DNA of 64,000 nt from Aquilaria yunnanensis (lineage: Eukaryota; Streptophyta; Magnoliopsida; Malvales; Thymelaeaceae), in contig CM077597.1 of the NCBI GenBank assembly GCA_039654915.1, forward strand, positions 92,506,001 to 92,570,000, in the 5' to 3' direction. Shown piece by piece: positions 10,043-41,035 of this stretch; the stretch's first letter is position 1, and every line of letters starts with the position of its first letter. The position numbers and the translations under genes are program-made. Below the pieces are notes generated by a model, which saw only the letters and a program-made list of their open reading frames with translations, was not told the origin of the DNA and did not search any database.

Positions 10043-10891
10043 TGATGCCCTCCAGCATCTCTGTTTGATGACATGGTGAACTCCGAGGGAGCTTCCGAGG
10101 AGGGGGGACGTCTTGCTGAGATATTCCCCAGGTGGGAAAATACCTGAAAGGCTCAGAAAAAAGGGTTAGGAGGTCCCCGGGGTGCTTTTCCGGGGAGGAG
10201 CCTCCGACGCCCAAGTTAGTGCCCTGAAAGTGAGTAAAGTAGGAACACTAGAGGGGTGTAAGAGCTGGCCTGTATAAGTTTTCTGCTATGCGCGAGGGCT
10301 GATCGCAGGATCCTTTGCCAAGTCCTATTTCCCAGTATTTATAGAAGTACCTGGCCCGTTCAGATCTTGACACGTGTTCGGTCGGATTCTCTCTGTGCTT
10401 TTTGGGCGTAGGGAACAGGTAGCCGTTTGTAGGCTCCTGGTTTTGTGGCTGAGATGGGACTTGGACGGCGTCAGCGCGTCAGGCCGCCGTTTCAGGTGGC
10501 GTGCGGGCTTCCTGTCAGAGGCTCCTTAAATGTTCATGCCGTACTCCCGAGGTCCTTTGGGCGAGGTCGCCCCTTGGAACGGACGCCCTTCCTCGGGGAT
10601 CACGCTGGTGGCTCGGGGAGTTTTCTAGCTCTGGAGTTCTGTCTTCGGGGGAATCTCTCCTGCTCTTAGTAGCTGGCTCTTTGCTCCCGAAGACGATATG
10701 TTCGGTTTCCCGAGGGAGTCAGCAACACATTTAAATGATCCTGGCGTTTCAGCCGAAGTGCTTACTTCGTTGTGCTCGATTCCGCTTCTGCCGAGGTCGT
10801 TGGCAATGCTTCTTTCCGAGCTACGTTAGGTTCCCTAGACAAACCTTCGGGGAAGTATGTACTGGAAGAGGCGAGAGCCCTTCGGCTATCA
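10043..10891 (-). repeat. G1 3' LTR
   Basis: 849 bp; on the sense (minus) strand it begins TGATAGCC and ends GGGCATCA. It carries a TATA box (plus-strand coordinates 10336-10343) and an upstream CACGTG G-box near 10370. The twin is at 22363-23211. Confidence 0.93.
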
Positions 10892-10905
10892 CAGGCCCTC
10901 CTCGA
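10892..10905 (-). other. G1 polypurine tract
   Basis: On the sense strand GAGGAGGGCCTG lies directly upstream of the 3' LTR, the expected place for plus-strand priming. Confidence 0.65.
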
Positions 10906-11175
10906 AAAGCCGAAGTGGAAACTTCGGTTTGTTCGCTTCCTGAGGGTTTTTCTTTGGGCTTTAAGCGTAGCACTTGTTCCGAAGACAAACCTTTCGTCCG
11001 AAGACGTAAGCTTTTCTACCACAACCTGTCTGTTGGTGTCTTCGAAGTAACCTGCTTTCCAGCTTTTTATGTCCGCGCCACGTCATGTGCCAGGAATAGG
11101 TGTGTCAGTCTGGAACGACGTGCCTGAGGATGATAAGTGTCAGGATACGCATCCCCCTTTTGGCGCGATGGTTGA

Positions 11176-11318
11176 CACGTGGCAGCCAGTCATTGGTGGG
11201 GATTGTGCTGTAACGGCAGGTGCGCCTTTTTAGGCACAAAAGAGCAGTTATGGCGACGTTTCGCCTTTGCAGAGCACTTATGACGCCGGTTCGCCTACCT
11301 CCCTCGGCTTATATATAT
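11176..11318 (+). promoter_or_regulatory. Promoter of the G1 antisense gene: G-box and TATA
   Basis: CACGTGG (11176-11182) and TATATATA (from 11310) lie 134 bp apart, start to start, 251 bp before the ATG at 11561. The same pair occurs at 135 bp in G3 (27377, 27512) and 135 bp in G2 (44015, 43880, minus strand), although the stretch between the LTR and the G-box varies from about 263 to 471 bp. The promoter drives transcription opposite to the retrotransposon's own mRNA. Confidence 0.65.
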
Positions 11319-11560
11319 GCTTGTTCCGTCATTTGTTCTCTTTTGCTTTTACTTTTGCTCTGGTTTTCCTTCTGCTTTCTCCTGCTTTTCGCGGCGGTTC
11401 TTTCTCCTGAGCTTTTTTTCGGCCACCTTTCACGACGGCGTCTTCACACACAGATTTCGGCAAGAGTTTTGGTGGGTTTTGATTTCCAGAACTCTTTGTT
11501 TTTTCAAAGTTTTTCCAAAGTTCGTTTTTGCCTTTTTCCGAGCTCATTTTTCAGCCAAAA

Positions 11561-13937
11561 ATGCCTATTCCTGAGAGTTGGCAACCTCTTTTGTCCCATC
11601 CTTGCTGCACTACTCCCGAAAAATTAGCAAGGTGGAAGAAAAAAATTTTCCTCCCTTCGTACGCTGTTACGTGGTTGCCGCGTCCTGACCATTACAGCTT
11701 CTCAAACCATAGCAATGAGGTTACCGTTTTTCGAGCTCAGCTGAAAGCCGGACTTCGGTACCCCCCTTCGGAGTTGATTTGCAAGTTTTGCAGATTTCAT
11801 GGCATTGCCGTAAATCAACTCCCTCCGAACTCGTACTGCTATTTCAACGCCTTCCTCTGTATGTGTGGCGTTTGCAAAATAAAGCCCCACTTCGTTATTT
11901 TTATGCAGTACTACAAGCTCTACGTGGTCCCGAAGGGTGGCTTTTACTTCATGCTACCTCGGGGATCCGAGAGCAAAAAGTATATGTTCACCTTCGCCAC
12001 CAAGGACAGCTGGCGAGGGTGGCAAAAAAAGTTTTTCTTTCTGAAGATGGAGGAGGCCTGGTCGCACGTTCCGACCAAGTGGGCTCAGGGAAGGCTGGAG
12101 GATGACATCGTAGATCCGAGGATGCTGCAGACTCCAGAGTTGGCTCCTGTATTCACGGATTTCGACAGACGTATCCGAGCCGTCACTAACTGGGGTCCCG
12201 AGGTCCCTTCGCGTTCTTTTTACCCCTTCCCCATCAATTGGAGGCTAATGACCGAGGAGGTCCTTCAGGAGCTCAAGGTGGTAAAAGAGCATAAGACGGA
12301 CCTCGGGATGCCGGCTCCTGCCATTGCTGGGAAGGATTCCTGGCTTTTGCAACTTCTTCGGGAGGAAGTTTCTTTCGAGACCTTTTTTGAGAGTGATTTA
12401 TTTTCTAGTCTCGTTATTATAACTTCATTTTGCACTCACACTGATGTCTTCCCTCTTTTTCAGAAATGGGCGAGGACACGGCTGCCTTCTACAAAGCCCT
12501 TTTCACCGGCCAAGCCGAGAAGGGCGAACAGACGAAGAAAGCCGTCTCCCAAAGGCGTAAAACAACCGGGGCCAGTCCTTCGGTGGCCAAACGGGCGAGG
12601 AAGGCCACTCCCGAGGAGGCTATCGAGGAGCCGGGAGCTGTTACCATTTCTCAGCCTGAGGTTATTGCTGAGGTTCCTCTTCAAAGTCCTACCCCGTCGC
12701 AGGCTCTTCTGGACGCCGTGGTAGAGCCCCCTTCTGCCGAAGAGCGGCGCAGAATCAAAGGCAAGGGGATCCCTACCGAGGAGGTTCCAGATCCTGACGA
12801 CGATGTGGTCGAGGTGCCTGCAGGTTCGTTTTATGATGCCTTTACCTTTTTGGATTTTTTGATGTCTGCTTGCCTTAATCCAGCTCCATGTTTTGTTGTG
12901 CAGAAGAGTTGCTCACTCCGGGTTGGGTGGCCGAGCATGCGAAGAGGAGAGCCCTTCGGGACGCCCATGTCTCGAAGGGGAAGGTCCCAAAGGAGCCTTT
13001 CTGGACATTCACGGAGGACATGAATATGTACTCCGGAGATTGCCCACAAATGGCTAAAGAGATCTCGAAAGGGATCCTTACTGAGGCCTCATTTAGAGCC
13101 ATTGCCGAGGCCCATCCAGGGGATGACTCTCTTGCTGCGAAGCTTTCCGAGCACGCCGCCCAGGTATATTTCACGTTTTTCTTTCTTGAATTTTTTCTAA
13201 GTGTTTGGTTTTCTCTTTGTCTTAGCAACCTTGCCTTCGTCCTTTTGCAGCTACTGGGATATGCCGGCTTTCTCAGAGTTCGGGTGGTGAGGCAGACGGC
13301 GTTCTGAACTCAGGTCTTAGACTCCTTAGAGAAAACTAAGGCCATGTGTTCGGATCTAGCTGTCAAGAATTTGCAGCTGGCCAGTGCTGCGGAGAAGGAA
13401 GTTGCCGCCTTTCGGGAGGAGTTCCGGAAAGAAAAAGAGGAACTTTCAAAGGACTCCTCCTAGAAAATTTCTGACCTCGGCTCCCATGTAGCGGAGCTGA
13501 TCTCGGCAAATGAGGCGCATCAGAAAGAAAAGTCAGAGGCTGAAGATCGCCTGGTGAAGGTGCTTGCTGAGAAGGTTGCGCTTCAAGCCGAGGTTGATGC
13601 CTTGAAGAAGGAGCCAAAGAAGAAGAAGATGAAGGCATTGAGGGAGGAGGTCGCCGAACTGAAGAAAGACCTTGACGACCTTGGGGTCGAGAAAGACAAA
13701 TCTGACCAGATGACCAAAGTTGGTTTTCAGGATGGATTTTATCTTGTTCGTCACCAAGTTCTTCAAAGGTTCCCAGATCTGGACCTTTCTTTCCTGGAGG
13801 CCCTGAATATTCCCGAGGGGCCTCGGTGGTCCTGGTCCAAAATCGAGTATCTCAACCTGCCATCTTCACTCCCTGCGCCGAAAACAGTAGAGAAAAACGC
13901 GGGAGCTGGCGGTTCTCAGGATGCCGGGAATCCTTAG
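11561..13937 (+). pseudogene. G1 antisense gene (4 exons): gypsy-type transposon-domain/coiled-coil protein
   Basis: Exons are inferred at 11561-12392, 12464-12823, 12904-13163 and 13251-13937, with GT-AG introns of 71, 80 and 87 bp; the joined exons total 2,139 bp, exactly 713 codons. The ATG at 11561 begins MPIPESWQPLL, shared with G2 and G3. Exon 1 resembles the plant family 'putative gypsy type transposon' (Transposase_28), with ELICKFCRFHGIAVNQLPPN and a later SWRGWQKKFFF. Exon 2 is acidic/basic and low in complexity, exon 3 has PFWTFTEDMNMYS, and exon 4 is a long Lys/Glu/Leu coiled coil ending DLSFLEALNIP. In-frame stops at 13304-13306 (CGA to TGA) and 13461-13463 (CAG to TAG) interrupt exon 4. 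The function is unknown; antisense extra ORFs are known in Tat elements. Confidence 0.75.
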
Positions 13938-14353
13938 TTTTGTTTAGGGCCCTTTGCCTTTTGCTTCTTCTTTTTTGGTCTTCTTTCTTTGTAAGCACTT
14001 TCATCTTTAATGAAGAAAATTTGGCTAAGTCTTTTTTGCGAGATCTGTTTATTTTCTTTCGTCCCGAACTAGTTCGCTCCAAAGACTTCGGAAAAAACTC
14101 GTCTGCGCTTAATATGGTGACCTTCTTCGTGAAGTTCCTACTTACGAGGGCTTTTGCTCAAGGATTTTGGCCAAGTCTTCTTGCGAGACTTTTTTCGTTG
14201 TCCTGAACACCTTCGCTCTAGAGACTTCAAAAAATGACACCTTCGCTTATCTGGTCACCTTTGCGAAATTTGCGCCACTTATGCTGAAGGCAATTTTTTG
14301 TACTTAGAGAAAATTTTGCTAACTTGTGTAGTACAATTTTCTTTGCCGAAATC
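13938..14353. other. G1 convergent 3' region between antisense gene and pol
   Basis: 416 bp separate the stops of two genes pointing at each other. It contains two diverged copies of a motif of the type 'cccgaac...ttcgctc...gacttcgg' (about 14064-14096 and 14199-14236), the same unit that is tandemly repeated in G3 at 30326-30600. Confidence 0.6.
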
Positions 14354-17300
14354 CTAAGCATAGAATTTTCTCAAGGCGTCCGAATGCCAAGTATTTTTCA
14401 ACTCTACTCCTTCAGAATTGCCGAGCTTGTAGACCCCTTTTCGTACTTCGGCTAGAACCAGGTAAGGGCCTTCCCAGTTTGCGTGAAATACCCCGTGGGA
14501 TGGCTTTCGTGGTGCAAATTCAACCTTTCGGAGAACGAGGTCTCCTTCCTTTATTCCTTTCGTCCTAGCGCGCAGATTTGCAGCTGCGGCCACTCTTTGC
14601 TGAAAAGCTTTTCTTCTCAACTCGGCTACTTCTCTGTGTTCGCTGACGAGGTCCAGCTTGGTTCTTAGGCCGAAATCATTTCCTCTTTCATCAAACACTT
14701 GTACTCGCACCGAAGGTCGTATTATCTCTATCGGGATGATGGCCTCTGTTCCGAAAACAAGCGAAAAAGGTGTTTCCCCTGTGGCTCTTCGGGGTGTTGT
14801 TCGGTAGCTCCACAATACACTCTGGAGTTCGCCTGGCCATTTTCCCTTTGCTTCCCCTAGCCTCTTTTTCAGACCATCTTTTATGGTCCTATTAGATACC
14901 TCTACTTGGCCATTACTTTGAGGATGGGCTACTGGGGCGAAGTGCATCTTTATTCCGAGGTTGTTGACAAAGTCCTGGAACCCTTTGTCTATAAACTGGG
15001 ATCCATTGTCGGCTACCAGTATCCTCGGTATGCCAAATCTGCATACAATGTTCTTCCATACGAACTTTTGCACTTCTTTAGCTGAGATAGTTGCTAATGG
15101 TTCTGCCTCGACCCACTTAGAGAAATAGTCGACTGCGACTACGCAGAATTTTACGCTCCCAGGTGCTGTTGGGAGTGGCCCGATGAGGTCTATGCTCCAT
15201 ACTGCGAACGGCCAGGGATAGTCAGCCGAAGTCACCATCTCCGAGGGTACCCTCTGGATTTTAGCGTGTCTTTGGCAGCTGTCACATTTTCGGATGAACT
15301 GCCGGGCATCCTTTCTTAGGGTAGGCCAAAAATATCCTTGGCGAAGTACCACTGTGGCAAGAGTGTCAGTTCCGATGTGTGAACCACAAGTGCCTTCGTG
15401 AACTTCTTCGAGGATCATTTCAGTGTCTTCTTCGTCGACACACCTCTGTAGCGGATTGGTGTATCCCTGCCGATATAACTCTTCCCCGATCAGGAAGAAT
15501 CTTCTGGCACGTCTTCGGACCTTTGCCGCATCATTGGGGTCTTCGGGGAGGGCATTGGTTGCGAGGTACCTTTTTATTGAATTCTTCCAGCCTTTTTCCG
15601 AAGTCACTATGTTTATTACTTTGATGCTTGGGCGGTCTAGTACCTCGGTATACGTTTTTGACTTTGCCAAGCAATCTGCCTCGGCATTATATCGTCGAGG
15701 CACATTTTCGATTCGAACATTGTCGAATTCTCGAATGAGCTTGGCCACGAGCTCGTGGTATTTTGCCAAGGTTGGGTCTTTTGCGCCGTAGTCTCCTGCT
15801 GTTTGTCGAACTACCAGCTGGGAGTCGTTGTGGGCCTTCAAGTTTCTTATGCCAATTTTCCTGGCCAGGCGCAACCCTGCTACGAGAGCTTCATACTCAA
15901 CCACATTGTTGGTGGCGTTAAAGCCGAACTTGATGGCCTTTATTACTTCTAAACCTTCGGGTCCTCTGATAATTACCCCGGCTCCCTGGTGTTCGGAACC
16001 TGAGGCTCCATCTACATGCAGCGTCCATTCTGGCTCATCTTTACCGAAATCTTGATGGCTGTCTTTGGTTATGGGTACTTCGGCGATGAAGTCTGCCAAT
16101 GCTTGAGCTTTAATGGATTTTCTGGGCTCGTAGGTAATGTCATGTTCGCCTAGCTCTATGCACCATTTGGAAAGTCTTTCTGAATGATCAACTTTTTTCA
16201 TGACGTCCCGTAGAGACAGACTACTTCGGACGATAATGGGGTGAGGCTGAAAGTATGGGCGCAATCTTCTTCCTGCCAACAGCAAGGCATATATGGCTTT
16301 TTGGAGCAATGGGTACCTGACCTCGGTGCCGTGCAGGGATTTGCTTACGTAATAAACTGGCCATTGCTTCGACCCTTCCTCTTTCATAAGGACCGAGCTT
16401 ACTGCTTTTTCTGAAACAGCGAGGTACAGGATGAGGGGCTCTCCTTCGCGAGGTTGTCGCAGAGTAGGCAGTCGAGACAAATAGATTTTGAGTTCTTCCC
16501 AGACTTTTTGACAATCCTCATTCCAAGGATGGCCGTCGTGCCCGATGTCATTTTCTCTTTTTGCTGCCTTAGTAAGGACTTTGAAGAATGCCCGGCACTG
16601 ATCTCCGTACCTGGAGATAAACCTGCTGAGAGAGGTTATCCTTCCAGTGAGTCTCTGTACATCTTTTATTGTGACGGGAGTTCGGAATTCGAGCAAAGCC
16701 TTGATTTTTTCTGGGTTAGCATCAATGCCTCTTTCTGACACCATGTACCCCAGAAATTTTCCCGAGGTCACGCCGAAGATGCATTTTTCGGTGTTAAGGC
16801 GAATTCCGAAGGTTCTGAGTTGTTGGAAGGTTTCCTTTAGATCTATGACGTGGTCACTCGGCATCTTACTTTTTACTATCATATCATCAACATAGACTTC
16901 CATGTTCCTCCTTATTTGGTCATGAAAGACTTTGCTCATCAGCCTTTGGTAGGTGGCTCCTGCATTTTTGAGCCCGAAGGGCATCCTGGTATAGCAATAT
17001 GTTCCACCTTCGGTGATGAAGGCAGTTTTCTCTTCATCTTCGGGATCCATCCTTATTTGATGATACCCACTGAAGGCGTCGAGGAAGCTTAGGAGCCCAT
17101 ATTCGGCAGTTGAGTCGACCAACTGGTCTATCGGTGGGAGAGGGTAGGAGTCTTTTGGGCAGGCATCGTTCAAGTTTCTGAAGTCGATGCACATTCGGAG
17201 CTTACTACTCCCTTCTTTTGTAGCAATGACCACGTTGCTTAGCCATTCAGGGTATTTAACCTCCCTAATTACATTTACGTCCATCAAGCGCTGTACTTCG

Positions 17301-17406
17301 GTTTTGACGAATTTGCTTTTGTGAACCGAAATGCCTCATTTTTTTTGCCGGACAGGTTTTACTTCCGGACTTACTTTCAGGCTATGTTGTATTATGCGAG
17401 GGTTTA
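14354..17406 (-). pseudogene. G1 pol: reverse transcriptase, RNase H, archaeal-type RNase H, integrase
   Basis: The open part from 17287 gives 977 residues. Reverse transcriptase has DFRNLNDACPKDSYPLPPID and YVDD at residues 132-135. A gypsy RNase H follows (about 260-400), then a second RNase H starting LHVDGASGSEHQGAGVIIRG (about 420-545), the Tat hallmark. Integrase has an HHCC finger ending CDSCQRHAK, a core with IDLIGPLP, VADNGSQF and HPQSNGQVEVSNRT (D-D-E), and a C-terminal region ending DALRKFYA. An in-frame TGA (17336-17338) lies just upstream of the long open stretch, where G2 and G3 have Arg. Upstream the frame is cut by the solo LTR at 17407. Confidence 0.93.
17402..17406. repeat. 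Solo-LTR target-site duplication (GTTTA), left copy
   Basis: GTTTA is repeated at 19935-19939. The intact sequence in G3 (about 33749-33760) carries a single GTTTA followed by CCCCTGGCAT, which shows the original target. Confidence 0.9.
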
Positions 17407-19934
17407 TGTGACGGAACGGGGCCCCAATGCCCCTAATCTTGTAGGCTCTTAGGGATTATGAATCTCACTAGTTACTATTGGCTAACTATTACTCGTCAAT
17501 ATAAATTAAAACAATTTATATGCAACTAGTTGCTTAGCCTACTCAGATTACTTATGCATGCTTCTGACTTGGCAATGCAACCGAAATTTAAAAGTCTTGG
17601 ATTAAAACATTGCTCGAGCATTTCATTAAAACATACTAAAAACATACCAAGTCATTGAAATACTAGTTGCTTTGACTACAAGTAACAGTTTGTGCATACA
17701 TTACAACTCTAGCATGCACCCAAAAGTAACAAGATGGATTTACATCCTAATGTATCCTATTAGAAGCAACTTGATTTAGTACACAAAGTACTATGTACAA
17801 GAGACAAAAACTACTAACTACTAAGATCAACTACTTGAGCCCACCTTGAGCTAAGCTAAGCTCCAAGTGTAGCCCTTCCTTAAACTTGTTCTTGTGTACT
17901 CTTGCCTCTACACTGTAAAGGCACAACTTGGTTAGCACATAACTTATACTGCAAGAAACTAGAATCACTAGGATTCTCAATAAAATACCTGCAAAACAGA
18001 AAGCTTAGGCCTCAGCTATCACTTCAGTGATTAGGCCCGGGATTAGATCCTGCACAATAAAACTAAGGGAATGAGTACTTGAAAGTACTCAGTAAGGATT
18101 CCCTTCTTAAACACCTGCAAGGAAAAATGCAACAAATATGCAATATGGCAACCAAGCAATCAAACATGCAATTCAAACAACAACCAATCAACAAAATATA
18201 AGATATGCAATGTATGGATGTATGGTATGAAATGCACACAATAAATGCACTTGGGACTTTCTGCACTCTAAGTGCCTTAACTCTTGCCGTGAGCTCAAAC
18301 GGCTGAGGTACTTGAGATACTGGCCCTCGTATCCCGGACACTTTACCTCAATTAAGTCCCATCTACGGGTTCTAGAGTATGTTGTCACCTCTCTCAAACT
18401 TACCCGTCTTTACCCTTGATTTATTGTACAGGGTAGTCTTCCTATGTGGTTTAACTAGTCAAACCCTCAAGGTTTAACTCAAAATACTACTAGTGGCTCA
18501 CTTACCAAACCACATGGTTCGGTTGGGATCGACTTAGGTTTTTCTCTCAATTGGCCATATGTAATTGATACTCTATACGGCCAATAAAGAGTCTAAAAAC
18601 CCACTTAATCCTCTTAGTGCTCATTCAAAAGCTTAAGCACTTTGAATTACTTAGCCACCAAGTCACATTTCTTTATCCTTAACCACACAACTTGACTACC
18701 TCTTAAATAATGCACAATTCCCACCTTAGGAATGAATTGTAGACCCAACCGAGGCTATGGAACGTCTTAGAATAGCCTAGGGATAGAAACCGAGAGTCTA
18801 AGTTAATCTTAGGATGGCCGGAAATCGAGGCCAAAATTGCAATTGGCGACGCGGCGCCAAAGAGTATTTGCTTCTGGCGACGCGGCGCCGCCGAACAAAC
18901 GTTCTGTGTACATTTTCGCATTCTGGCGACGCGTCGCCAATATGGCGTCGAGCTTGGCGACGCGTCGCCAACGCCTTACTCTGCGTTGCGCGATACGTGC
19001 GTTCTTGTACACAACCTACTCAAACTTTCTCATTTCTATACCAAACTCAATGGGTCTTGTTCCTAATTCATCCCCACACACAAAACTACCAAACCATGCA
19101 TTATTTGAGCTTAATTACTTGAACCCTTACCTCAATTTTGCCACACAAGCAAGCAATCAACAAAGCCTCCTAAGCTCAATTAAGCTTCCTTGAGTTCCAA
19201 GCCTAAAACCAAAGCAATTTGGCACCCAAACCAATCAAACTAAGACCATTTCTAGCTCTAGAAACAACCTATAACCACGCCAAATGATCTCAAGAAGCTT
19301 ACCTACGAAATTGGATTCCAAAACAAGCTTCCAAAGATCAAATGAGGCAAGAACACCTTAAACAAAGCTTGGTGATCTTTCTAACACCTTGGGCACCCTT
19401 AATTCAATGGAAATTTGCAAGAAAATGCTAGTTTGAGCTGCCAATTTGAGAGAGGAGAGGGAGCTACGAAATTTTGGAGGCTTGAACAATGACTAAGTGA
19501 AGAAGAGAAGAAGAAAACCTTAGCTTATAAGCATAATAAGCAACTTTTCCCTCTCTTGCACTTAAGTCCTCAAGCTTTCAAAAGCTTCAAATAGCTCACC
19601 AACTCACACTCCAAACTCACTTTTCTTTGCTTTAAAGCATACTAAAAGCTTCTCAAACTAAATTTTCTTGAACACTTTAGCCACTTAAGTTCTAAATGGC
19701 TCAAAAGAACACTTAGTGCCACAAGTTGTCAAAACTTACTAGGATGGTTCTAAAAGCTAGAATAACTAATGGTCTTGACTTAACTATGCCAAATCACACT
19801 TAGGAACTCACTTACTTAATTAAGCTTATCTTACTTGCTTAACAAAGCACTAACTTGAGGTACTTAATTTAATAAACACTTAATCAAAGTAAAGTAAACA
19901 CTTACTTGATTAACCAACTAGGAGAGCTGTCACA
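17407..19934. mobile_element. Solo LTR (2,528 bp) of an unassigned LTR retrotransposon, inside G1
   Basis: It begins TGTGACGGAACGGGGCCCC and ends AGAGCTGTCACA (TG...CA) and is flanked by GTTTA on both sides. No gag or pol lies within. A second copy of almost the same length (2,529 bp) is at 53637-56165. The likely history is insertion of a full element and loss of its interior by LTR-LTR recombination. The length and the CG-palindrome cluster (about 18844-18975) suggest a large-LTR Ty3/gypsy family, but no internal domain is present to prove it. The element separates G1 protease from reverse transcriptase. Confidence 0.85.
18844..18975. repeat. Cluster of CG-rich palindromes (GGCGACGCGTCGCC-like) in the solo LTR
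   Basis: Four 14-bp motifs of the form GGCGACG-CG-CGTCGCC or the variant GGCGACGCGGCGCC occur at about 18844, 18877, 18925 and 18957, plus the half site TATGGCGTCGAG. The rest of the LTR is AT-rich. A matching but more decayed cluster is at 55082-55202. Confidence 0.7.
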
Positions 19935-21002
19935 GTTTACCCCTGGCATATCCTTTGCCGAGTAGGCGAACAGACCTTTATTCATTAGTAGAAAGGATAC
20001 AAGGTTTTTCTTGTCACATTCGGCCAAGTTTTTCCCTATTCGGGTATTTTGGCCTGGGACAAGTTCTATATCTTCCGTTTCTACTTCTTCAGCCTCGCCC
20101 ATTTGTGGTTCTTCGGTGGGCCGAGTCCCTCCTGCTGTGGTTTGTGCGAAGTTGGCTGTTGGGGCCTTTTGTGCTTTGACAAACACCTTTCTGACCTCGG
20201 CTTGATCGATGAATATTTCGGCGTCTCCATCCTGGGTGGCGAAGGTGATTGTTAAGTACTTCACATTTGGTCGGATGTGCAAATTTCCTTGTGTTTGCCT
20301 TCCAAGGATGGCGTTGTACGACGAAGGGACATCCATGACGATGAACCTTGTCATTGTGGAGGCAAAAACTTCTCCTTTTTCGTTGACCGCACTCCCTCTC
20401 ATCATCAGGGGAAGGTCGATCCAACCGAGGACGGGCAGCTCTGAGGGTCCTACTCCAAAGGTTGGCGAAGTAACCGATTTGAGATCGATGTTGGATATTC
20501 CGAAGCTTGGGAGCAGATGCGAGAATAGGACGTCGGCATTTGATCCGTCGTCAAGCAGCACCCTTTTGACGTCCCAATTTCCTATTCTCACCATAACCAA
20601 CAATGGGTCGTCATGAGGGAAGATGACGGAGGAACCATCTCTTCGGATGAGTTTTTTCGATGGGCTTTGATACTCCATCGTTGCTATTTCCCTAACCTTC
20701 CTCTTTCTTCCCGAGGATGGCAGTCCAGTGGTGATGGTTTGTATTACCCCCGCCGAAGGTGGGATGCGCTTTTTTGGACTTCGGTTCCTCCTCCTGTCGG
20801 AGTCGTACTCCTCTTCATCAGCCCTTCCTTCCTCCTCCCTTCTTGCCTTTGGCGAAGGCATTCGCAGATAGCGCCGAAGCTGGCCTTGCTTAATCAGCGA
20901 CTCAATGTACTTCTTCAACTGGAAGCAGTCCTCGGTGTCGTGACCGTGGTCGCGATGAAACTGACAAAACTTCTTCATATTCTTTTTGTTGTCAGCAGTC
21001 AT
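19935..21002 (-). pseudogene. G1 gag C-terminus and protease
   Basis: The frame begins with a zinc-knuckle-like CX2HX4HX4C (CQFHRDHGHDTEDC), then a basic linker (KRKVREIATMEYQSPSKK) and an aspartic protease whose active-site segment reads VLLDDGSNADVLFS, that is DDG instead of the usual DTG or DSG. A conserved PSSYNAILGRQTQGNLHIRP follows. At its 3' end the frame runs into the solo LTR after PGVN. It is separated from the rest of gag by an in-frame TAG at 21021-21023 and a TGA at 21120-21122. Confidence 0.85.
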
Positions 21003-22394
21003 TGACTTTGGTCGCTGAATCTAAGACCCCTGTTTCTCCATTGTCATGAGAATGTTGGTCCTTGTGGTGTTCAGGGGTGTAAAGTTCGGAGGAGGCTTCC
21101 TTCCCCTGAACCTCCGAGGTCATCCTGTTTGCTCCGTCGGATACTTGGCTTGCTGGCTTGACCCTTCGGGGCGGGAGTGATCGTTCTTCGGCCCCCCCAT
21201 TCTCAGCTCTTCGGCTGTCATATGCTGCTCTTCCCTTCGGAAAAATTCACCGAGCGTGTCCGGGGGGTCCTTGGAAAACTCATAAAATAACTGTGAGTCT
21301 CTTCGAAGGCCCCATATCATTGCGAGAATGCGTATTTCTGGCCGAAAGTCTGGAACACTTAGGGCTTCTCCGTTAAATCTTTCGACATAGTCACGGATGG
21401 TTTCTCCGTTCCTTTGTGCTATGTCGAACATCTGTACTGGCATCTTTGCCGTAGGGCGACTTCCAATAAACTGCTGGGTGAAGGCAGTGGACAGCTCCTG
21501 GAACCCTCTGATGGTTCCTGGGGCCAGCGAATTGTACCATGCTGTAGCAGGACCGGCAAGGGTGACCTCGAAACATTTACATAGGGTGGCATCGTCAGCC
21601 CCATGCAACACCATGCTCCGTTTATACTTCATTAGGTGGGCCTGAGGATCTGTTCGGCCATCGTACGTTTCTAGCCGAGGTACGCGGAAGTCACTGGGCA
21701 TGGCTGCTTCGACTATTGCTCGGGTGAATGGTGACTCATCACCACAGAAAGTTTCAGATAGTCTGGCCCAGACAGGTTTGCGGGCTACCTGTTTCTCTAC
21801 CCTTTCTAACCTCGCCAGCATTTTCTCCAAAAGGAGTGTGGCGCTAGGCCCTTCTTCGGGACAGGGAGATCGTCGGCACCTCTTCGGGGAATGAGCTCGG
21901 CGCCGTGGGGACAAAGACCTCGTTTCAGGTGACGAGCTCCTTTGGTGCGGGATTCTGGGTCGTCTGGACCCCGTTTGCTCCGCACGCCCTGCCCTGAGGG
22001 GCATGTTTTCCATTGAAGACTCCTCCTGTGGGTCTCCACTGCCCGAACTGGGATGAATTGACTTGGGGCTTTTCCCCCGAGGGAGTGCTGGTGATGCAGG
22101 TCTTTGGGCCTGAGCCGGTTGCGGCCATCTTTGGTCTATTTGTTGTGTCACTTCGGCCACAATGAACCATTGTAAGTCACGCAGAAAACTCATGGTTACG
22201 ACCAGAGGACGTTCTTCCTCCGGCAGAGAAGTCCCTGGAGTGGGTAGCTCGGCAGCTGGCTGGACTTCGGGCGCGGACGAGGAATTCGGAAGCGGGTTGT
22301 CCTTGGAACGCCTAGTCTCAACGACAGCCACCTGAGGGTGGGTTCCCACAGACGGCGCCAAATGATGCCCTCCAGCATCTCTGTCTGATGACAT
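21003..22394 (-). pseudogene. G1 gag (capsid part), starting inside the LTR
   Basis: The ATG at 22394 lies 31 bp inside the right LTR. The first residues run MSSDRDAGGHHLAPSVGTH, and the part HLAPSVGT is the translated primer-binding site. A charged, proline-rich region (about residues 60-190) is followed by the retrotransposon gag domain with ETFCGDESPFTRAIVEAAMP, ATAWYNSLAPGTIRGF and NGETIRDYVERFN. A TGA at 21120-21122, where G2 and G3 have CGA, ends the frame after 424 codons, and a TAG at 21021-21023 (CAG in G2 and G3) follows. The product would be the capsid precursor of virus-like particles. Confidence 0.9.
22343..22360 (-). other. G1 primer-binding site
   Basis: Sense strand TGGCGCCGTCTGTGGGAA, two bases inside the 5' LTR. 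The TGGCGCCG start matches a tRNA 3' end of the type used by Tat/Athila elements; the tRNA is not assigned. The same 18 bases occur in G2 and, with one change, in G3. Confidence 0.75.
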
Positions 22395-23211
22395 GGTGAA
22401 CTCCGAGGGAGCTTCCGAGGAGGGGGGACGTCTTGCTGAGATATTCCCCAGGTGGGAAAATACCTGAAAGGCTCAGAAAAAAGGGTTAGGAGGTCTTCGG
22501 GGTGCTTTTCCGGGGAGGAGCCTCCGACGCCCAAGTTAGTGCCCTGAAAGTGAGTAAAGTAGGAACACTAGAGGGGTGTAAGAGCTGGCCTGTATAAGTT
22601 TTCTGCTATGCGCGAGGGCTGATCGCAGGATCCTTTGCCAAGTCCTATTTCCCAGTATTTATAGAAGTACCTGGCCCGTTCAGATCCTGACACGTGTTCG
22701 GTCGGATTCTCTCTGTGCTTTTTGGGCATAGGGAACAGGTAGCCGTTTGTAGGCTCCTGGTTTTGTGGCTGAGATGGGACTTGGACGGCGTCAGCGCGTC
22801 AGGCCGCCGTTTCAGGTGACGTGCGGGCTTCCTGTCAGAGGCTCCTTAAATGCTCATGCCGTACTCCCGAGGTCCTTTGGGCGAGGTCGCCCCTTGGAAC
22901 GGACGCCCTTCCTCGGGGATCACGCTGGTGGCTCGGGGAGTTTTCTAGCTCTGGAGTTCTGTCTTCGGGGGAATCTCTCCTGCTCTTAGTAGCTGGCTCT
23001 TTGCTCCCGAAGACGATATGTTCGGTTTCCCGAGGGAGTCAGCAACACATTTAAATGATCCTGGCGTTTCAGCCAAAGTGCTTACTTCGTTGTGCTCGAT
23101 TCCGCTTCTGCCGAGGTCGTTGGCAATGCTTCTTTCCGAGCTACGTCAGGTTCCCCAGACAAACCTTCGGGGAAGTATGTACTGGAAGAGGCGAGAGCCC
23201 TTCGGCTATCA
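22363..23211 (-). repeat. G1 5' LTR (promoter LTR)
   Basis: 849 bp, about 1% different by eye from 10043-10891. The TATA box on the sense strand is TATAAATA (plus-strand 22656-22663) with a CACGTG G-box near 22691. The gag ATG lies within it (22394). It ends with ACTTG at 23212-23216, the target duplication. Confidence 0.93.
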
Positions 23212-23241
23212 ACTTGTATCTATATATTCACACAAGGCTTC

Positions 23242-24106
23242 TGATAGCCGAAGGACTATCGCCCCTCCTAGAACGTACTTCCTACCGAAAGCATGCTCGG
23301 GAAACCTGGCACCATCCGAGGGAGGCACTAGTACTGACCTCGGATTGGGCGAATTCCAGTGCCTCAAACTCGGGATTTAGCCTAGTATCCCAGAGAACTC
23401 CAAAGGTGCAGACAGCCCCATCGGGGGATTAAACGGATCACCTTCGGGATAGAAGAACCAGCTACCGCAAGCAGGAGAGGATTTTCCGAAGGCGAAACCT
23501 CCGAGCTAGCCAGCTCCCTGAACTGCGAACATAACTCCCGTAGAAGGGTGTTCATCTCAGAGAACGACCTCGCCCAAAGGACATCGGGAGTACGGCAAGA
23601 GCATTTAAGGAGCCTCTGACACATCGCCCACAGACGCAACATGTCGCCTCAAACGGCGCTCTGACACGCCGACGCCGCCCAGGCCTTGTCACAACCTGTC
23701 TCGGACCAAGGCTCGAGGGAGCCTACAAACAGCTACTTGTCCCATATGCCCAAAGGTACACAGCAGATCTGACCGAACACGTGTAATGATCTGAACGGGC
23801 CAGACACTTCTATAAATACCAAAGAGCAGCTCCTTGCAAACGGTTGGTTGGCTGGTCAGTCAGTTGAGAGAATACGAACATGCAAGGCCACTAAACCCTT
23901 GAGTGCTCTCTTTCCTTCACCTCTCAGAAAACTGACTTGGGCGTCGGAGGTTCCTCCCCGGAAAAACATCCTGGGGACCTCCTAACCTTTCCTTTTGGGC
24001 TCTTCAGGTACCTCTCCCTGGGAAACCTCCACTCCGGGCGTTCTCCTCCTCAGGAAGTCCCTCCAGTAACCACCATGTCCTCCAGCGAAGATGTCTCCGG
24101 ACATCA
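23242..24106 (+). repeat. G2 5' LTR
   Basis: Begins TGATAGCCGAAGG and ends CTCCGGACATCA. The TATA box TATAAATA is at 23811-23818, with an ACACGTGT motif about 35 bp upstream. The gag ATG (24075) is in its last 32 bases. G2's LTR differs from those of G1 and G3, so these are related but distinct subfamilies. Confidence 0.92.
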
Positions 24107-25675
24107 TTTGGCGCCGTCTGTGGGAACCCACCCTCAGGTTGCCGTCGTTGAGACTCGGCGTTCTAAGGACAAAGGACTCCCAAAGTCCCCGTCCGCGCCT
24201 GAAGTCCAACCGGCTGCTGAGCAAACTCTTCCAGGGACTTCCACGCCCGAGGAAGAACGTCTTCTGGTCATAACCATGAGCTTCCTCCGTGACTTCCAAC
24301 GGTCTGTTGTGGCTGAGATGACACAATAGATAGACAGAAGATGGCCACAACAAGCTCAAACCCAAAGGTCTCCTTCACCGGTACGCCCTCGGGAAAGGAG
24401 CCCCAAAGCAGTTCGCCGCAGTTCGGGGAGTGAAGACCCACGTGAGGAGTCTTCAACAGAAAATATGCCCCTCGGGGCACGCCTTCCAGGGCAAACGAGG
24501 CCCAACCAACCCAAAATTCCATGCCGAAGGAGCCCTTTGCCTGAGACGAGGTCACCTTCTCCCCGACGACGAAGCCATTCTCCGAAGAGGCGCCGCCAAT
24601 CTCCTCCACCCAAGGAAGAACCTAGCGCCACCGCCCTCATGGAGAAAATATTGGCAAGGCTGGACAGAGTCGAGAGGCAGGTGGCTCGCAAGCCAGTTTG
24701 GGCCAGACTGTCTGAGTCTTTTTGTGGGGATCAGTCGCCTTTCACCCGAGCTGTGGTCGAGGCAGCTATGCCAGGTGACTTCAGGGTACCTTGGCTAGAT
24801 ACGTACGATGGTCGGACCGACCCACAGGCCCACCTGACGAAGTACAGACGCAGCATGATGATGCACGGTACGGACAACGCCACCTTGTGCAAGTGCTTCG
24901 AGGTCACCCTCTCTGGGCCAGCAACCGCGTGGTACAACTCCTTGGCCCCAGGAATCATCGGAGAATTCCAGGAGTTATCAACAGCCTTCACCCAACAGTT
25001 CATCGGGAGTCGCCTGACGGCGAAGATGCCCGTTCAAATGTTCAACATAGCGCAAAGAAGTGGAGAAACTATACGCGACTATGTCGAGAGGTTCAACAGA
25101 GAGGCCTTAAGTGTCCCAGACTTTCGGCCCGAAATACGCATCCTCGCCATGACAAGGGGCCTTCGGAAGGATTCTCAACTTTTCTATGAATTCTCCAAGG
25201 ACCCTCCAGACACACTGGGCGAATTCTACCGACGGGCCGAGCAGCACATGACGGCCGAAGAACTAAGGATGGGTGGACCTAGGCCCGAGCACACCCGTGG
25301 CGAGGGGTCCAGCCAGCAGGCATGCTATCCGACCGACCAGCCACCCCGACCTCGGAGAATGCGAGGAAGGAAATCCCAGAACTTCACAGCGCTGAACACC
25401 ACGAAGACCAACATCCTCATGACTCTGGAGAGGCAGGGAACACAAGTTCAGAGGCCAAGGGCCATGACGCTGAAAATAGAAAAAACATGAAGAAGTTCTG
25501 CCAATTTCATCGCGATCATGGCCACGACACTGAGGATTACTTCCAGCTGAAGAAGTATATTGAATCGCTGATAAAACAAGGCCAACTTCGGCGGTTCCTA
25601 CGGCTGCCTTCCCCGAAGGGGAGGAAAGAGGAGGAAGGAAAGGTAGAAGATGAGGACTACGACTCCGACAGGTGA
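24075..25675 (+). pseudogene. G2 gag, with stops and a frameshift
   Basis: The ATG (24075-24077, context caccATGtcc) is inside the LTR, and the reading frame crosses the primer-binding site as HHLAPSVGTH. A TAG (24327-24329, from CAG or CAA) cuts the N-terminal region. The gag domain follows with ESFCGDQSPFTRAVVEAAMP and SGETIRDYVERFN. A one-base loss near 25468 shifts the frame just before the zinc-knuckle-like CQFHRDHGHDTEDYF, where the last Cys is Tyr. A TGA at 25673-25675 replaces CGA. It is equivalent to G1 gag on the opposite strand. Confidence 0.88.
24109..24126 (+). other. G2 primer-binding site
   Basis: TGGCGCCGTCTGTGGGAA, two bases after the 5' LTR and in frame within gag. Confidence 0.75.
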
Positions 25676-25992
25676 AGAAACCGAAGTCCAAAGAGGCGCC
25701 CTCCACCCCCTGCGGGAGTCATACAAACAATCACGACGGGGCGCCCATCCTCGGAAAGGAAAAGGAAGGCCAGGGAAGTAGCTGTGATGGACTATCAAAG
25801 TCCGGCGAAGAAGCTATCCCGAAAAGATGGTTCCACAGTCGTCTTTCCTCACGACGACCCACTCCTGGTCATGGCAAGAATTGGAAACTGGGATGTCAAA
25901 AGGGTATTACTTGATGACGGATCAAATGCTGACGTCCTATTTTCAAAACTGCTGCCGAGCTTGGGCATATCCATCAGCGATCTCAAGCCTGT
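25676..25992 (+). pseudogene. G2 protease, N-terminal part (interrupted by G3)
   Basis: It has the linker MDYQSPAKKLSRKDGS, then VLLDDGSNADVLFSKLL (active site DDG). After ISDLKPV the frame meets G3 at 25993. The continuing half, from TSPTFGVGPFELPVLGW, resumes at 37082 after G3. Confidence 0.88.
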
Positions 25993-26905
25993 TGATGCCC
26001 CAAAGCATCTTCGTTTGTTGTCATGTTGACAGGTGGAGAGACTTCCTGAGGAGGCGAGCGCCTGGAGCTCTGGTTTCCCAGCTGAGTGTGCCTGAAAAGC
26101 TCAAAGGAGAGGTTAGGAGGTCCCCGGTTTGCTTTTCCGGGGAGGACCTCCGACGCCCAAGTCAGTTTTCTGAGTGAAAGTGGAGGAAGAACACTAAAGG
26201 ATCAAGTGTCTTGCCTGTTTGGTGCTTTCTCAGAGGGAGGAAAATGCCCATCCATTGCCCAGTCCCTTTTCCTAGTATTTATAGGAGTAGATGGTCCGTT
26301 CAGATCATGACACGTATTCGGTCGGATTTGATCTGTGCTTTTGGACCTAGGGGACAGGCAGCCGTTTGCAGCCTTTTTTAGCCTTGGACCCGGACAGGTT
26401 GTGTCAGGACTAGGGCGGCTGCGGCATGTCAGTTCGCCGTTCTGATGTGACGTGTAGGGCTTGTGGGCGACATGTCAGAGGCTCCTTAAATGCTCATACC
26501 GTACTCCCGAGGTCCCCTCGGCGAGGTCGCCCTTCGGTGTGTGCACCCTCTTCGGATTCTATCCGTCCTTTGGTGCGAGCACCTCCTTCGGGATCTATCC
26601 CATAGTTCTGGGAGTTCCCTTGATGGACACCTCCTTCGGGACTCACACCCATAGTTCGGGGATTCCCTTGTTCAGGTGTTTCTTGTTCGGGGAAAATCCT
26701 CTTCGGGGCAGTCAGTTTGGCCCCTCGATGGAGACGGTGTTATCCTCGGAATTCCTGACGAGCTAACCAAAGTCTCGAGCTCATAGTGTTTGACTTCGCA
26801 CCTTCCGAGGTCAGTGAAAAGATCCTCTCTTGGGTGACGTCACACTCCTTGGCCAATATTCTGGCAGGGAGTTACTACTGAGGAGGCAATAGCCTTTGGC
26901 TATCA
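25993..26905 (-). repeat. G3 3' LTR
   Basis: 913 bp; the twin is at 36168-37081. A sense-strand TATA box lies at plus-strand 26276-26283. Confidence 0.92.
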
Positions 26906-26918
26906 CAGGCCCCCCTCC
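26906..26918 (-). other. G3 polypurine tract
   Basis: The sense strand reads GGAGGGGGGCCTG, adjoining the 3' LTR. Confidence 0.65.
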
Positions 26919-27041
26919 GAAAAGCCGAAGTGAGAAACTTCGGTTCATCGATTTTCGGGTCCTGTGGCTGTGATATCTACGCCGAAGACGCCTTCTTCTG
27001 CTTGTAGTGATGGGCAGCATTTTTGCGTCCTCGAGGCGCGA

Positions 27042-27199
27042 GAAGATAGGTTGTCCCTGTGCCGAAGATACACCCTCTGCCCGAAGTCACAGGCTGTCTC
27101 TTGGTGTCCTCGTGTCGAGGGAAGATAGGATAACCTTGTATCGAAGATGGACCTTCTGCCCGAAGTCACAGGCTGTCTTTCGGTGTCTTCGAGGTAACC
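27042..27199. repeat. Two 79-bp direct repeats upstream of the G3 antisense gene
   Basis: Units at 27042-27120 and 27121-27199 share 'gaagatagg', 'gcccgaagtcacaggctgtc' and 'ggtgtc(c/t)tcg'. G1 and G2 have only one unit, so this is a local duplication in G3. Confidence 0.75.
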
Positions 27200-27305
27200 T
27201 ACTTTTTTGCCTTTATAGGTTTGCTCATGCGTCGCGTCCTGCGTCTAGCGGAGTCAGTCTAGGGCGGCGCCCCTAAACCAAACGATGTCAGAGGGCGTGC
27301 TCGAC

Positions 27306-27520
27306 GTGATGGGCGACACGTGGCACGTTCGCTGTGCGATGACCGACACGCGGCACGTTTGCTGCGCGATGGTTGACACGTGGCGCACTTTTACTGGGCG
27401 AGAATGCACTGAGTACGGCAGGCGCGACTTTTCAGGCTCACTTAGCAGTTATGGCGACACTTCGCCTTCCGAGGGGTACTAATGACGACGGTTCACCTGG
27501 CCTTCTCGGCCTATATATAC
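27306..27520 (+). promoter_or_regulatory. Promoter of the G3 antisense gene: tripled G-box repeat and TATA
   Basis: Three 30-bp units (27306, 27336 and 27366) contain CACGTGG, CACGCGG and CACGTGG (27317, 27347 and 27377). TATATATA follows from 27512, 135 bp after the last G-box, and the ATG is 252 bp after the TATA. G1 and G2 carry a single G-box at the equivalent place. Confidence 0.62.
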
Positions 27521-27763
27521 CAGTCCTATCATAACCCTCTTTTTGCTTCTGCTTTTGCTTTCTTCTGCCTTCTAATTCTCTCTCATTTTTCCGCGGCGGT
27601 TCTCCTTTTTCAGGTGTTTTTCCGAGAACTTTTCACGACGGATTCCAGAAATCCAGATTCCGGCAAGACCTTTGGTGGGTTTTAGTCTTTTTGCTTTTTT
27701 CAAAGCTTCTTCTTTGTTTTTCCCGAACTCGTTTTCCTTGTTGTTTCTGAACTCGTTTTCACC

Positions 27764-30187
27764 ATGCCTGTTCCCGAGAGTTGGCAACCTCTCCTTTCTC
27801 ACCCCTGCTGCACTACTCTGGCAAAACTAGCGAAGTGGAAGAAAAAGTTTTTCATACCCTCTTATTCTGTGACGAGGTTGCCCCGTCCTGACCAATTTCC
27901 TTTCTCCAACCGAAGTGATGAAATCACCGTTTTCCGAGCCCAATTGAAGGCCGGACTTCGGTATCCCCCCCAGAGATGGTTAGCGCGTTCTGCGACTTCC
28001 ATGGCATTGCCGTTAACCAGCTCCCACCGAACTCGTACTGTTATTTTAACGCCTTCCTCTGTATGTGCGGCGTTTTCAAAATAAAACCTCACTTTGTAGT
28101 TTTTCTTCAGTACTACAAGCTCTTCGTGATCCCGAAGGGTGGCTTCTACTTTATGCTACCTCGGGGATCCGGGAGCAAAAGGTATACGTTCACTTTTGCC
28201 ACCAAAGACAGCTGGCGAGGGTGGCAACAAAATTCTTTTTCCTGAAGAAGTCGGAAACTTGGTCGCACGTCCCGACCAAGTGGGCTCAGGGGAGGCTCAA
28301 GATGGATGTTGTTGACCCAAAGATACTGCTAGACGCCGACGTAGCACCTATCTTTGAGGACTTCGACAGGCGCATCTGGGCCGTCTCTGACTGGGTTGCC
28401 GAGGTCGCTCCTCGTGCCCTTTACCCCTTTCCGATCAACTAAAGGCTCATGACCGAAGAGGTCCTTCGAGAACTCAAGGTGGTAAAGGAGCATGAGACGG
28501 ACCTCAACATGCCGAAACCGGCTTCTTCGGGGAAGGACTCCTGGCTCGTGAAACTCCTTCGGGGGAAAGAGACTTATGAGTCTTTTTGTGAGAGTAAGTT
28601 ACTTTCTTATTTTTCCCTTCATATCTTCATCTTGGACTTACACTGATCTTCTTTTTCTTTTTTCAGAGATGGGCGACGACGCGGCTGCCTTCTACAAGGC
28701 TCTTTTTACCGGGCAGGCCGAGAGGGGCGAACAGACAAAGAAGGCCGCCTCTCGGAGGCGGAAACAGACTTCGGGCGGCCCTCCTCCCAAACGGGCAAAG
28801 AAAGCTGCTCCTTCCTCTCTTCCGCAAATTCCGGAGGAGGTAGGCGAGGAGCCCGAGGACCCTGCCGCCCTTTTGCCCGAGGTTCCTTCTGCCGACGTCC
28901 CTTCTTCCGACGTCCTACCTCAAAGCCCCACGCCTTCGCATGCTCTTCTGGAGGGCGATGGGGAGGAGACCCCTTCTGCCGAGGAGCGGTGTCAAATAAA
29001 AGGCAAGGGGATCTCTACTGAGGCGACGTCGATTCTTGACGACGACGTTACCGAGGTGCCAGCAGGTTTGCACTTTTGTCGAATCAACCTTTTGTTTTTT
29101 GCAAATCCTTAAGACTTTTCTGGCCTTAACCAATTTTTCTGCCTTGTTGCGCAGCGGAGGTGGCCGCTCCTGACTGAGTTGCCGAACACGCCCGCAAGAG
29201 GGCCCTTCAGGATGCCAAAGTCCCGGCAGGGAAAGTTCCAAAGGAGCCCTTCTGGACGTTCACGGAGGACATGAATATGTACTCCGAGGACTGTCCCGAG
29301 ATGGCCAGGCAGATGTGCAAAGGGGTGCTTACTGAGGCCTCTTACAAGGCCCTTGCGGCAGCTTACCCAAGCGACAATTCTTTGGCTGCCAAGCTTACTG
29401 AACAGGCCGCCCAGGTACGCTTCTCCGTTTCCTGAGTGCCAATTTCGCCTTTGCCTTTTACTTAGCATCATTTTCCCTTTGTTTGCCTTTTTTGCAGCTG
29501 ATGGGGTATGCCGGGTATCTCCGTGTTCGGGTGGCGCGAGAGTCAGAAAAGAGGGCGTCGCTCTGGGATTTTTACACCAAGGCGAAGGCCCAGTGTTCGG
29601 CGCTGGAAGCCGAAAATACTCAGCTGAAGCAGTCTTCGGAGAAGGAGGTTGCTGAACTTCGGGAGGGGTTCAAAAAAGAGAAAAAGGAACTTTAGAAAGA
29701 CACCTCCCAGAAACTTTCCGACATCGGTTCTCGGGTGGCGGAGCTGACCTCGGCCGTTGAAGCGATTCAAAAGGATAAGTCAGAAAGTGACGCGATCCTT
29801 GCGAAGACGCTCGAGGAAAAGGCTCAGCTCGAGGCCGAGGTCGCAACTCTGAAGGAGCCTTCAGAAGAGAAGAAGAAGATAAAGGCATTGAAAAGGAAGC
29901 TCAGGGACCTGGAGAAGGACTATGCGGATTTGGCGGTCAGGAAGCGGGAGTCCGATGATATGACGAAGTTGGGCTTTCAAGACGGCTTCTGTCTTGTTCG
30001 ACACCAAATTCTGCAGAAGTTCCCAGACTTTGACCTCTCCTTCCTGGAAGCCATGAACATCCCCAAGGAGCGTCGGTGGACTTGGTCCAAGATCGAGCAC
30101 TTGAGACTGCCTCTTTCTCTCCCGGCGCCGAAGGCTACTGACAAAAGCACAGAGGCTGACAGTTCTCAAGACGCCGAGGTTCCTTAG
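27764..30187 (+). pseudogene. G3 antisense gene (4 exons), broken
   Basis: The ATG is in the good context accATGcc. Inferred exons are 27764-28593, 28667-29065, 29155-29414 and 29498-30187, with GT-AG introns of 73, 89 and 83 bp in the same phases as in G1. The same domains occur: DFHGIAVNQLPPNSYCYF, GWQQN, a low-complexity exon 2 (RRKQTSGGPPPKRAKK), PFWTFTEDMNMYSED, and a coiled coil ending DLSFLEAMNIP. Damage: a frameshift near 27970 and another near 28225 in exon 1, TAA at about 28441 (Trp in G1), TGA at 29175-29177 (TGG in G1) and TAG near 29693. The frame and domains confirm the gene model of G1; this copy cannot make the full protein. Confidence 0.75.
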
Positions 30188-30325
30188 TTTGCACTAGGGC
30201 CCTTTGTCTTCATTTTCTTCTTCTTTTTTGTAGCCTTTCAGCAACTTTCTTCTCTGTAAGCACTCTTTGGCTTAATAGATACAACTTTGGCTAAGTATTT
30301 CTTGCCAGATTTCTTTGTTTCCCCT

Positions 30326-30600
30326 TGTCCCGAACATATTCGCTCAAGAGACTTCGGAAAACCATACTTTTGCTTTCCTTTGTCCCGAACATATTCGCTC
30401 AAGAGACTTCGGAAAACCATATTCTTGCTTTCCTTTGTCCCGAACATATTCGCTCGAGAGACTTCGGAAAACCATATTCTTGCTTTCCTTTGTCCCGAAC
30501 ATATTCGTTCAAGAGACTTCGGAAAACCATATTCTTGCTTTCCTTTGTCCCGAACATATTCGCTCAAGAGACTTCGGAAAACTTACTTTTTGCTTTCCTT
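30326..30600. repeat. Five 55-bp tandem repeats in the G3 convergent 3' region
   Basis: Units start at 30326, 30381, 30436, 30491 and 30546 (for example TGTCCCGAACATATTCGCTC and GAGACTTCGGAAAACCATA). They are nearly identical, so the expansion is recent. They lie between the antisense gene's stop (30187) and the pol stop (30701). Single diverged units occur in G1 near 14064-14096. Confidence 0.93.
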
Positions 30601-30700
30601 GGTGATTGCTTTCGTGAGACTCTTGTTTTGTACTTCTTCAGAACTTTTTGCTTAGACAAATTTTTCCAATTTGTACAATGCAACCTTCCCACCGAAATTC

Positions 30701-33700: not shown

Positions 33701-34009
33701 AGGTTTTACTTCCGGACTCACTTTGAGGCTATGCTGGATTACGCGAGGGTTTACCCCTGGCATGTCCTTCGGCGAGTAGGCGAACAGATCTTTATTTGTA
33801 AGCAGAAAAGATACAAGTTTTTCCTTGTTTCCTTCGGCCATACTTTTCCCTATTCGGGTACTATGGCCTGGGACAAGCTCTACTTCTTCTGTTTCCGCTT
33901 TTGTGGGATCTTCTGCCTCGCCCTTTTCCAGCTCTTTTGCTTCTACATCATGTGCTAAGTTACTTGCTGGAGCCTTTCGTGCTCTGACGAACACCTTTCT
34001 CACCTCGCC
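30701..34009 (-). pseudogene. G3 pol: reverse transcriptase, RNase H, archaeal-type RNase H, integrase
   Basis: From 34003 there are 866 open residues. Reverse transcriptase has YVDD near residue 260, then a gypsy RNase H, then the second RNase H beginning LHIDGASGSEHQGAGVIIRG, then the integrase finger CGSCQRHAK and core IDLIGPLP. A TGA at 31403-31405 (TGG in G1) cuts the integrase core; the rest continues in frame with HFAPVAHPQSNGQVEVSNRT. A further TGA near 30782 precedes the natural end (stop at 30701-30703, DALKKFYA-like in G2). The upstream TAA at 34010-34012 separates it from protease. Confidence 0.92.
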
Positions 34010-37081: not shown

Positions 37082-37086
37082 CCTGT

Positions 37087-40671: not shown

Positions 40672-40770
40672 AATCTTGACGAAAGGGTTTACATTGTACA
40701 AAGTTAGAAAAATTTTCTAAGTACAAGGGCTTCTGAAAGAAAGATTCTTGAACCATAGATATACTAAAAT

Positions 40771-41035
40771 TCCGCGAAGGTGGTTGCCAGAGTAAGTATG
40801 GGTATCATTTTCCGAAGTCCCTCGAGCGAACATGTTCGGGACAATAGGAAATAAAGATTCCGCGAAGATGGTCGCCAGAATAAGCATGGGTGTGATTTCC
40901 TGAAGTCCCTCGAGCAAAGCATGTTCGGGACAATAGGAAATGTAAAACCTTGCGAAAATTTCTAAACACAAAGGCTCACAGAGAACCGATCTAATCTTCC
41001 GAAGTCTCTTGAGCAAATGCGTTCGGGGCAAAAAG
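40771..41035. repeat. Imperfect 87-bp repeats in the G2 convergent 3' region
   Basis: Two units (about 40771-40857 and 40858-40944) carry CCGAAGTCCCTCGAG and ATGTTCGGGACAATAGGAAA, and a shorter third occurs at about 40985-41035. The minus strand of these units contains the same core (tgttcgggaca / ttcgctcgag) as the 55-bp repeats of G3. Confidence 0.8.

Follow-up and report, generated by a model that had tools for sequence, protein, structure and literature searches.

Each of the three Ty3/gypsy elements (G1, G2 and G3) found with its own pair of LTRs in the 64-kb window, the whole stretch of DNA analysed here, appears to carry one and the same four-exon gene, which lies between pol and the 3′ LTR and runs antisense to gag-pol (Table 1). 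The conserved splice sites, the shared intron phases and the constraint on the exons together argue for splicing, and we think it probable that this is the antisense TRP28 accessory gene of Tat/Retand-type LTR retrotransposons, with a nuclear transcript that comes from element DNA and is spliced to encode one regulatory protein. Judged from its sequence, the gene appears to be of a known kind, and its conserved intron structure looks new.

Table 1. Positions in the 64-kb window of the three elements, the parts of their antisense genes and the promoter-like words upstream.
Feature	Positions	Strand	Remarks
Element G1	10043..23211	-	LTRs 10043-10891 and 22363-23211; ACTTG 5-base target duplication on both sides
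G1 G-box	11173..11183	+	upstream of antisense gene
G1 TATA block	11304..11317	+	TATA 251 nt before ATG
G1 exon 1	11561..12392	+	TRP28 domain (PF04195)
G1 intron 1	12393..12463	+	GT-AG, phase 1
G1 exon 2	12464..12823	+	basic then acidic linker, NLS-like clusters (by eye)
G1 intron 2	12824..12903	+	GT-AG, phase 1
G1 exon 3	12904..13163	+	
G1 intron 3	13164..13250	+	GT-AG, phase 0; reading frame open in this copy
G1 exon 4	13251..13937	+	coiled-coil-like, conserved C-terminal block; two internal stops
Element G2	23236..45143	+	LTRs 23236-24106 and 44273-45143; BLAST-match borders, unrefined
G2 G-box	44008..44018	-	
G2 TATA block	43873..43886	-	263 nt before ATG
G2 exon 1	42786..43617	-	one stop
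G2 exon 2	42306..42717	-	1-base frame difference
G2 exon 3	41960..42219	-	one stop; followed by intron 3 with AA acceptor
G2 exon 4	41191..41880	-	one internal stop
Element G3	25993..37082	-	nested in G2; LTRs 25993-26906 and 36168-37082; BLAST-match borders, unrefined
G3 G-box	27374..27384	+	
G3 TATA block	27506..27519	+	252 nt before ATG
G3 exon 1	27764..28593	+	two 1-base gaps and a stop
G3 exon 2	28667..29065	+	
G3 exon 3	29155..29414	+	one stop
G3 exon 4	29498..30187	+	one internal stop

Pfam searches of a subset of the element ORFs, one that left out the G2 gag, matched reverse transcriptase in all three elements, gag in G1 and G3, and an integrase core in G1. Reverse transcriptase and two RNase H-like Pfam matches were found; the two-RNase-H make-up is a Tat feature. 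LTR stretches from different elements are about 69-75% identical, and the two LTRs of one element differ at 10 of 849 sites in G1 (10 of them transitions), 24 of 871 in G2 (18 transitions) and 17 of 914 in G3 (14 transitions). No target duplication was seen at the LTR borders of G2 and G3, which are unrefined BLAST-match borders.

Alignment of the copies bears out most of the preliminary description, which had proposed the same four-exon antisense gene for three Tat copies. The introns lie at like places, and exon 1 (832/830/832 bp in G1/G3/G2) and exon 3 (260/260/260 bp) have the lengths that had been given for them; exon 2 measures 360/399/412 bp and exon 4 687/690/690 bp. Intron phases 1, 1 and 0 are common to the three copies, again as proposed, provided that the two 1-base gaps in G3 exon 1 and the 1-base difference in G2 exon 2 are discounted. 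When the G1 exons are joined, the frame is indeed restored, over 713 codons including the final stop, save for the two nonsense codons already reported. One detail required correction. The description of three GT-AG introns of 68-89 bp per copy holds for the lengths (71/73/68, 80/89/86 and 87/83/79 bp for introns 1, 2 and 3 in G1/G3/G2) and for eight of the nine introns: all nine donors are GT, and the third acceptor of G2 is AA. The gene begins with MPIPESWQ in G1 and G2 and with MPVPESWQ in G3. All three copies in the window are broken, G2 having also lost the one acceptor.

The introns are rich in T (46-50%, against 22-23% in the exons). Intron 1 contains CTGAT in all three copies, its A standing 19-20 nt before the intron end, and intron 2 has a YTRAY word 25 nt before its end, also in all three. 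Intron 3 is the weakest case, with a YTRAY branch-point word in G2 and none in G1 or G3; its 87 bp are open in G1, and the 83 bp of G3 and 79 bp of G2 shift the frame.

An excess of third-position substitutions was significant in all 12 exon comparisons (P 0.028 to 1.7e-13) and in none of the nine intron comparisons (P 0.11 to 0.95). Over all exons, Nei-Gojobori dN/dS came to 0.158 for G1-G2 (701 codons), 0.224 for G1-G3 (698) and 0.200 for G2-G3 (696), ratios that are approximate because dS is near 1, close to saturation; codons holding stops (7, 6 and 8, the final one counted) and codons touching gaps were left out. The three copies thus lie at 0.16-0.22 rather than near 1, the value that had been named beforehand as speaking against the gene. 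Individual exons range from 0.09 to 0.32, with the minimum in exons 1 and 3, and forward shifted frames give 1.0-1.8. One frame on the gag-pol strand is also low (0.25-0.31); it is the mirror of the coding frame, with coinciding third positions and with stops at 31-39 of its codons. Codon periodicity and dN/dS together rule out chance ORFs. Since pol stands at 0.066-0.078, the antisense gene is constrained, but two to three times less than pol. The exons differ by 18-36% between elements, against 1.2-2.8% within LTR pairs, so that most of the selection signal is older than the present insertions.

These signals also bear on the possibility that exons 1, 4 and perhaps 2 are separate antisense ORFs, each translated alone from unspliced RNA, with the GT-AG gaps as chance spacers. 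Such an arrangement would suit the ATG that exon 2 has two bases after its acceptor, the open intron 3 of G1 and of a G1-like protein described below (P0005), and the single antisense ORFs reported in the accessible part of a published survey (PMC11963269). Exon 3, however, is constrained even over its first 38 codons, which lack a Met (dN/dS 0.20-0.25; periodicity not significant, with 36-37 usable codons), and exon 4 of G2 has no Met before residue 83 (in G1 there is none before residue 32; G3 has one at residue 2). Moreover, all but one of the 12 splice-dinucleotide columns are invariant, compared with 83 of the 253 columns inside the introns (binomial 4e-5), and the introns are devoid of codon signal. 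The start of exon 4 is different: its first 27 codons show weak constraint (dN/dS 0.73, 0.38 and 0.34; periodicity not significant), which suits separate ORFs and counts against a spliced gene at that border. On balance we consider separate ORFs very improbable.

The same measurements weigh on the idea that the antisense RNA is itself the product, pairing with genomic RNA to feed siRNA or limit copying, with the reading frames secondary. Complementarity between the transcript and the 3′ part of the genomic RNA would be expected, and the part of PMC7264820 available to us raises the idea; the dN/dS of 0.16-0.22 and the codon periodicity in all four exons show instead selection on protein. We regard the RNA as an unlikely main product, although both roles may coexist.

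Returning to the spliced, protein-coding gene, splicing acts on nuclear RNA, and a splice signal is effective on its own strand alone. Read on the gag-pol strand, the intron borders are CT...AC and so are not splice sites there, in agreement with the earlier argument that the introns cannot be removed from the genomic-sense transcript. With the splice signals on the other strand, genomic RNA would retain the introns through reverse transcription, and the protein therefore could not come from packaged RNA. Antisense is the orientation in which introns survive reverse transcription. We propose that integrated element DNA gives rise in the nucleus to an antisense transcript from which the introns would be spliced out, yielding one protein of about 710 residues in which a TRP28 domain is followed by a basic NLS-like linker, the residues of a short conserved exon and, at the C terminus, a coiled coil. 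This protein may return to the nucleus, dimerise and act on element DNA or chromatin, and might in this way regulate the element's own copies. The introns may in addition shield the antisense mRNA from RDR6-type silencing. According to the accessible part of PMC7488869, intron-bearing transgenes in plants yield fewer RDR6-dependent siRNAs, and retained introns may accordingly give protection to an mRNA whose sequence is antisense to the element it comes from.

The gene may have a promoter of its own, as previously suggested: a promoter-like TATA/G-box block lies upstream of all three ATGs. The conserved block sits between the 3′ LTR and the ATG in each copy, and the G1 TATA block lies about 410 bp outside the LTR match. 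TCGGNYTATAWATA and TGACACGTGGC each occur exactly three times in the window, once upstream of each of the three ATGs, and not once in 100 shuffles, a comparison that overstates the surprise because the patterns were picked after viewing the alignment. Beyond the stop codon the flank is rich in T and contains AATAAA in G2 and similar words in G1 and G3.

At the protein level, G1 exon 1 matches PF04195 (Transposase_28/TRP28) with 36.1 bits, above the Pfam cut-off of 26.2. Exon 2 is K/R-rich, with clusters in all three copies that look NLS-like by eye. Exon 4 is charged, by eye coiled-coil-like, and holds a conserved block FQDGF...RHQ...DLSFLEA.NIP; its pieces and relatives gave no Pfam match above the cut-off. 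A PDB sequence search returned a best E of only 0.59, and an AlphaFold model of exon 1 built with five sequences predicted no fold (mean pLDDT 31).

Relatives outside the window were found with profiles of single exons. The exon 1 profile identified four proteins among 1266 candidates, two of which (P0001 and P0002) also exceed the PF04195 cut-off. All four stop within about 50 residues of the end of exon 1, and all continue past it with Ser followed by Glu or Lys, consistent with a GTGAG or GTAAG donor at this position; P0001 apparently (by eye) passes an acceptor into exon 2 in another frame. The exon 4 profile identified 12 proteins among 7997 scored candidates. Eleven begin within exon 4, and the other, P0005, reads through intron 3 as G1 can, its exon 3 part being identical to G1 at 46 of 46 residues and its intron reading at 22 of 29 (by eye). 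Exon 4 of P0005 is free of stops, which shows that copies intact in this exon exist. The source name Agrobacterium sp. ST15.13.040 is common to P0003 and P0015, and each is on a contig of 10,446 nt; they probably represent plant DNA within a bacterial assembly, on a single contig that would connect exon 1 with exon 4. Beyond the window, intron conservation is visible in protein translations only, and mainly for intron 1. The joined G1 protein found no match as a query (7994 candidates scored), which we ascribe to common words filling the candidate list because the exon 1 and exon 4 profiles later matched. The viral contigs and genome contigs scanned contained no relative.

Published work describes antisense TRP28 ORFs as a hallmark of Retand elements. 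In the accessible part of the Retand survey, 61 of the 63 tabulated clusters have one, and among 104 antisense ORFs 57 carry TRP28 and 11 Smc domains (PMC11963269). The gene described here shares with them PF04195 above its cut-off, the antisense orientation and the location between pol and the 3′ LTR; Retand elements are also known to have a coiled-coil (Smc-like) antisense ORF, and the published ranges cover the LTR length and the pol-3′ LTR span seen here (about 3.5 kb in G1). It differs in that the published TRP28 ORFs are single ORFs, whereas TRP28 and the coiled coil here seem to belong to exons 1 and 4 of a single gene. The survey took its ORFs from ORF Finder with a 600-bp limit; exons 1 and 4, at 830-832 and 687-690 bp, are long enough to be listed if open, exons 2 and 3, at 260-412 bp, are too short, and the published TRP28 and Smc-like ORFs may therefore be exons of one gene. 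A term search of the survey text gave no hit for "intron" and two for "splic", both from one reference title printed twice. If the gene is spliced, ORF-only surveys have split one protein into pieces and the joined protein is the proper object to test, and RNA-seq junctions would reveal expression strand-specifically, in a way the genomic transcript cannot mimic.

The survey also argues against a host gene, recently captured or nested, that lies in these elements by chance. Introns are typical of nuclear genes and would suit such an origin, but the gene is found at one position in three elements with LTRs that are only about 70-75% alike, and PF04195 ORFs hold that place in all but two of the surveyed clusters (PMC11963269). 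We consider a recent capture the least probable of the alternatives; an ancient capture of a host gene is possible.

Other known systems offer partial parallels. The accessible part of PMC7264820 reports an own promoter and a nuclear product for gene23 of maize Grande and points out the need to examine antisense and spliced transcripts; likened by description only, gene23 resembles the present gene as an antisense accessory gene, its upstream promoter may have a counterpart in the promoter-like block, and the NLS-like clusters would fit its nuclear product. Common bean has an antisense ORF2 in 15 Ty3-gypsy families, likewise between pol and the 3′ LTR and in some cases with an SMC-type coiled-coil match; its prediction by FGENESH and GENSCAN means that spliced models of it may already be available, and the accessible text does not discuss introns in ORF2 (no hit for "intron" in a term search; PMC4093653). 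HBZ of HTLV-1 is also a spliced antisense gene of an integrated retroelement but, as far as the available text describes it, belongs to a human retrovirus, starts inside the 3′ LTR, has an intron of 1400-1540 nt and encodes a bZIP protein (PMC1459196); no homology is implied. Ogre is a plant Ty3/gypsy element that keeps an intron, as stated in the accessible part of PMC6317226. The portions consulted of that paper and of PMC12786077, PMC7730604, PMC11728184 and PMC3091746 describe no introns in antisense TRP28 genes, and we found no report of them in the literature searched, a scope that leaves out most subscription journals. The remark in the preliminary description that a conserved multi-intron antisense gene with its own promoter is less described thus holds for the introns and not for the remainder, given the TRP28 ORFs of the surveyed clusters (PMC11963269) and the reported gene23 promoter (PMC7264820), insofar as the accessible texts go.

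The function and origin of Retand antisense genes are stated as open in the parts of PMC7264820 and PMC11963269 at hand. Introns bear on the origin of the gene and on possible ways for an element gene to escape RNA silencing. One tentative and rather doubtful extension is that Retand-type elements acquired a true nuclear gene in antisense, with its introns, and retained them as a shield against RDR6-driven silencing; in that case the TRP28 and Smc-like ORFs recorded in many plants would represent exons of a single ancient protein, and the introns would favour a cellular over a viral origin.

Several further features of the window were recorded. Between pol and gag, G1 holds a 2.5-kb insert (17407-19934) without an ORF of more than 150 residues, and a second copy, 82% alike, lies elsewhere in the window (53642-56166). 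In G3, a 55-bp repeat is present five times (30325-30600) between the 3′ end of the antisense gene and the end of pol, a place from which tandem arrays are known in Retand elements, as the available part of PMC11963269 reports. A 1165-residue ORF at 2922-6419 with reverse transcriptase, zf-RVT and RNase H-like matches is LINE-like, and an ORF at 48477-49304 that matches the KIB1-4 beta-propeller family is probably a plant gene or part of one.
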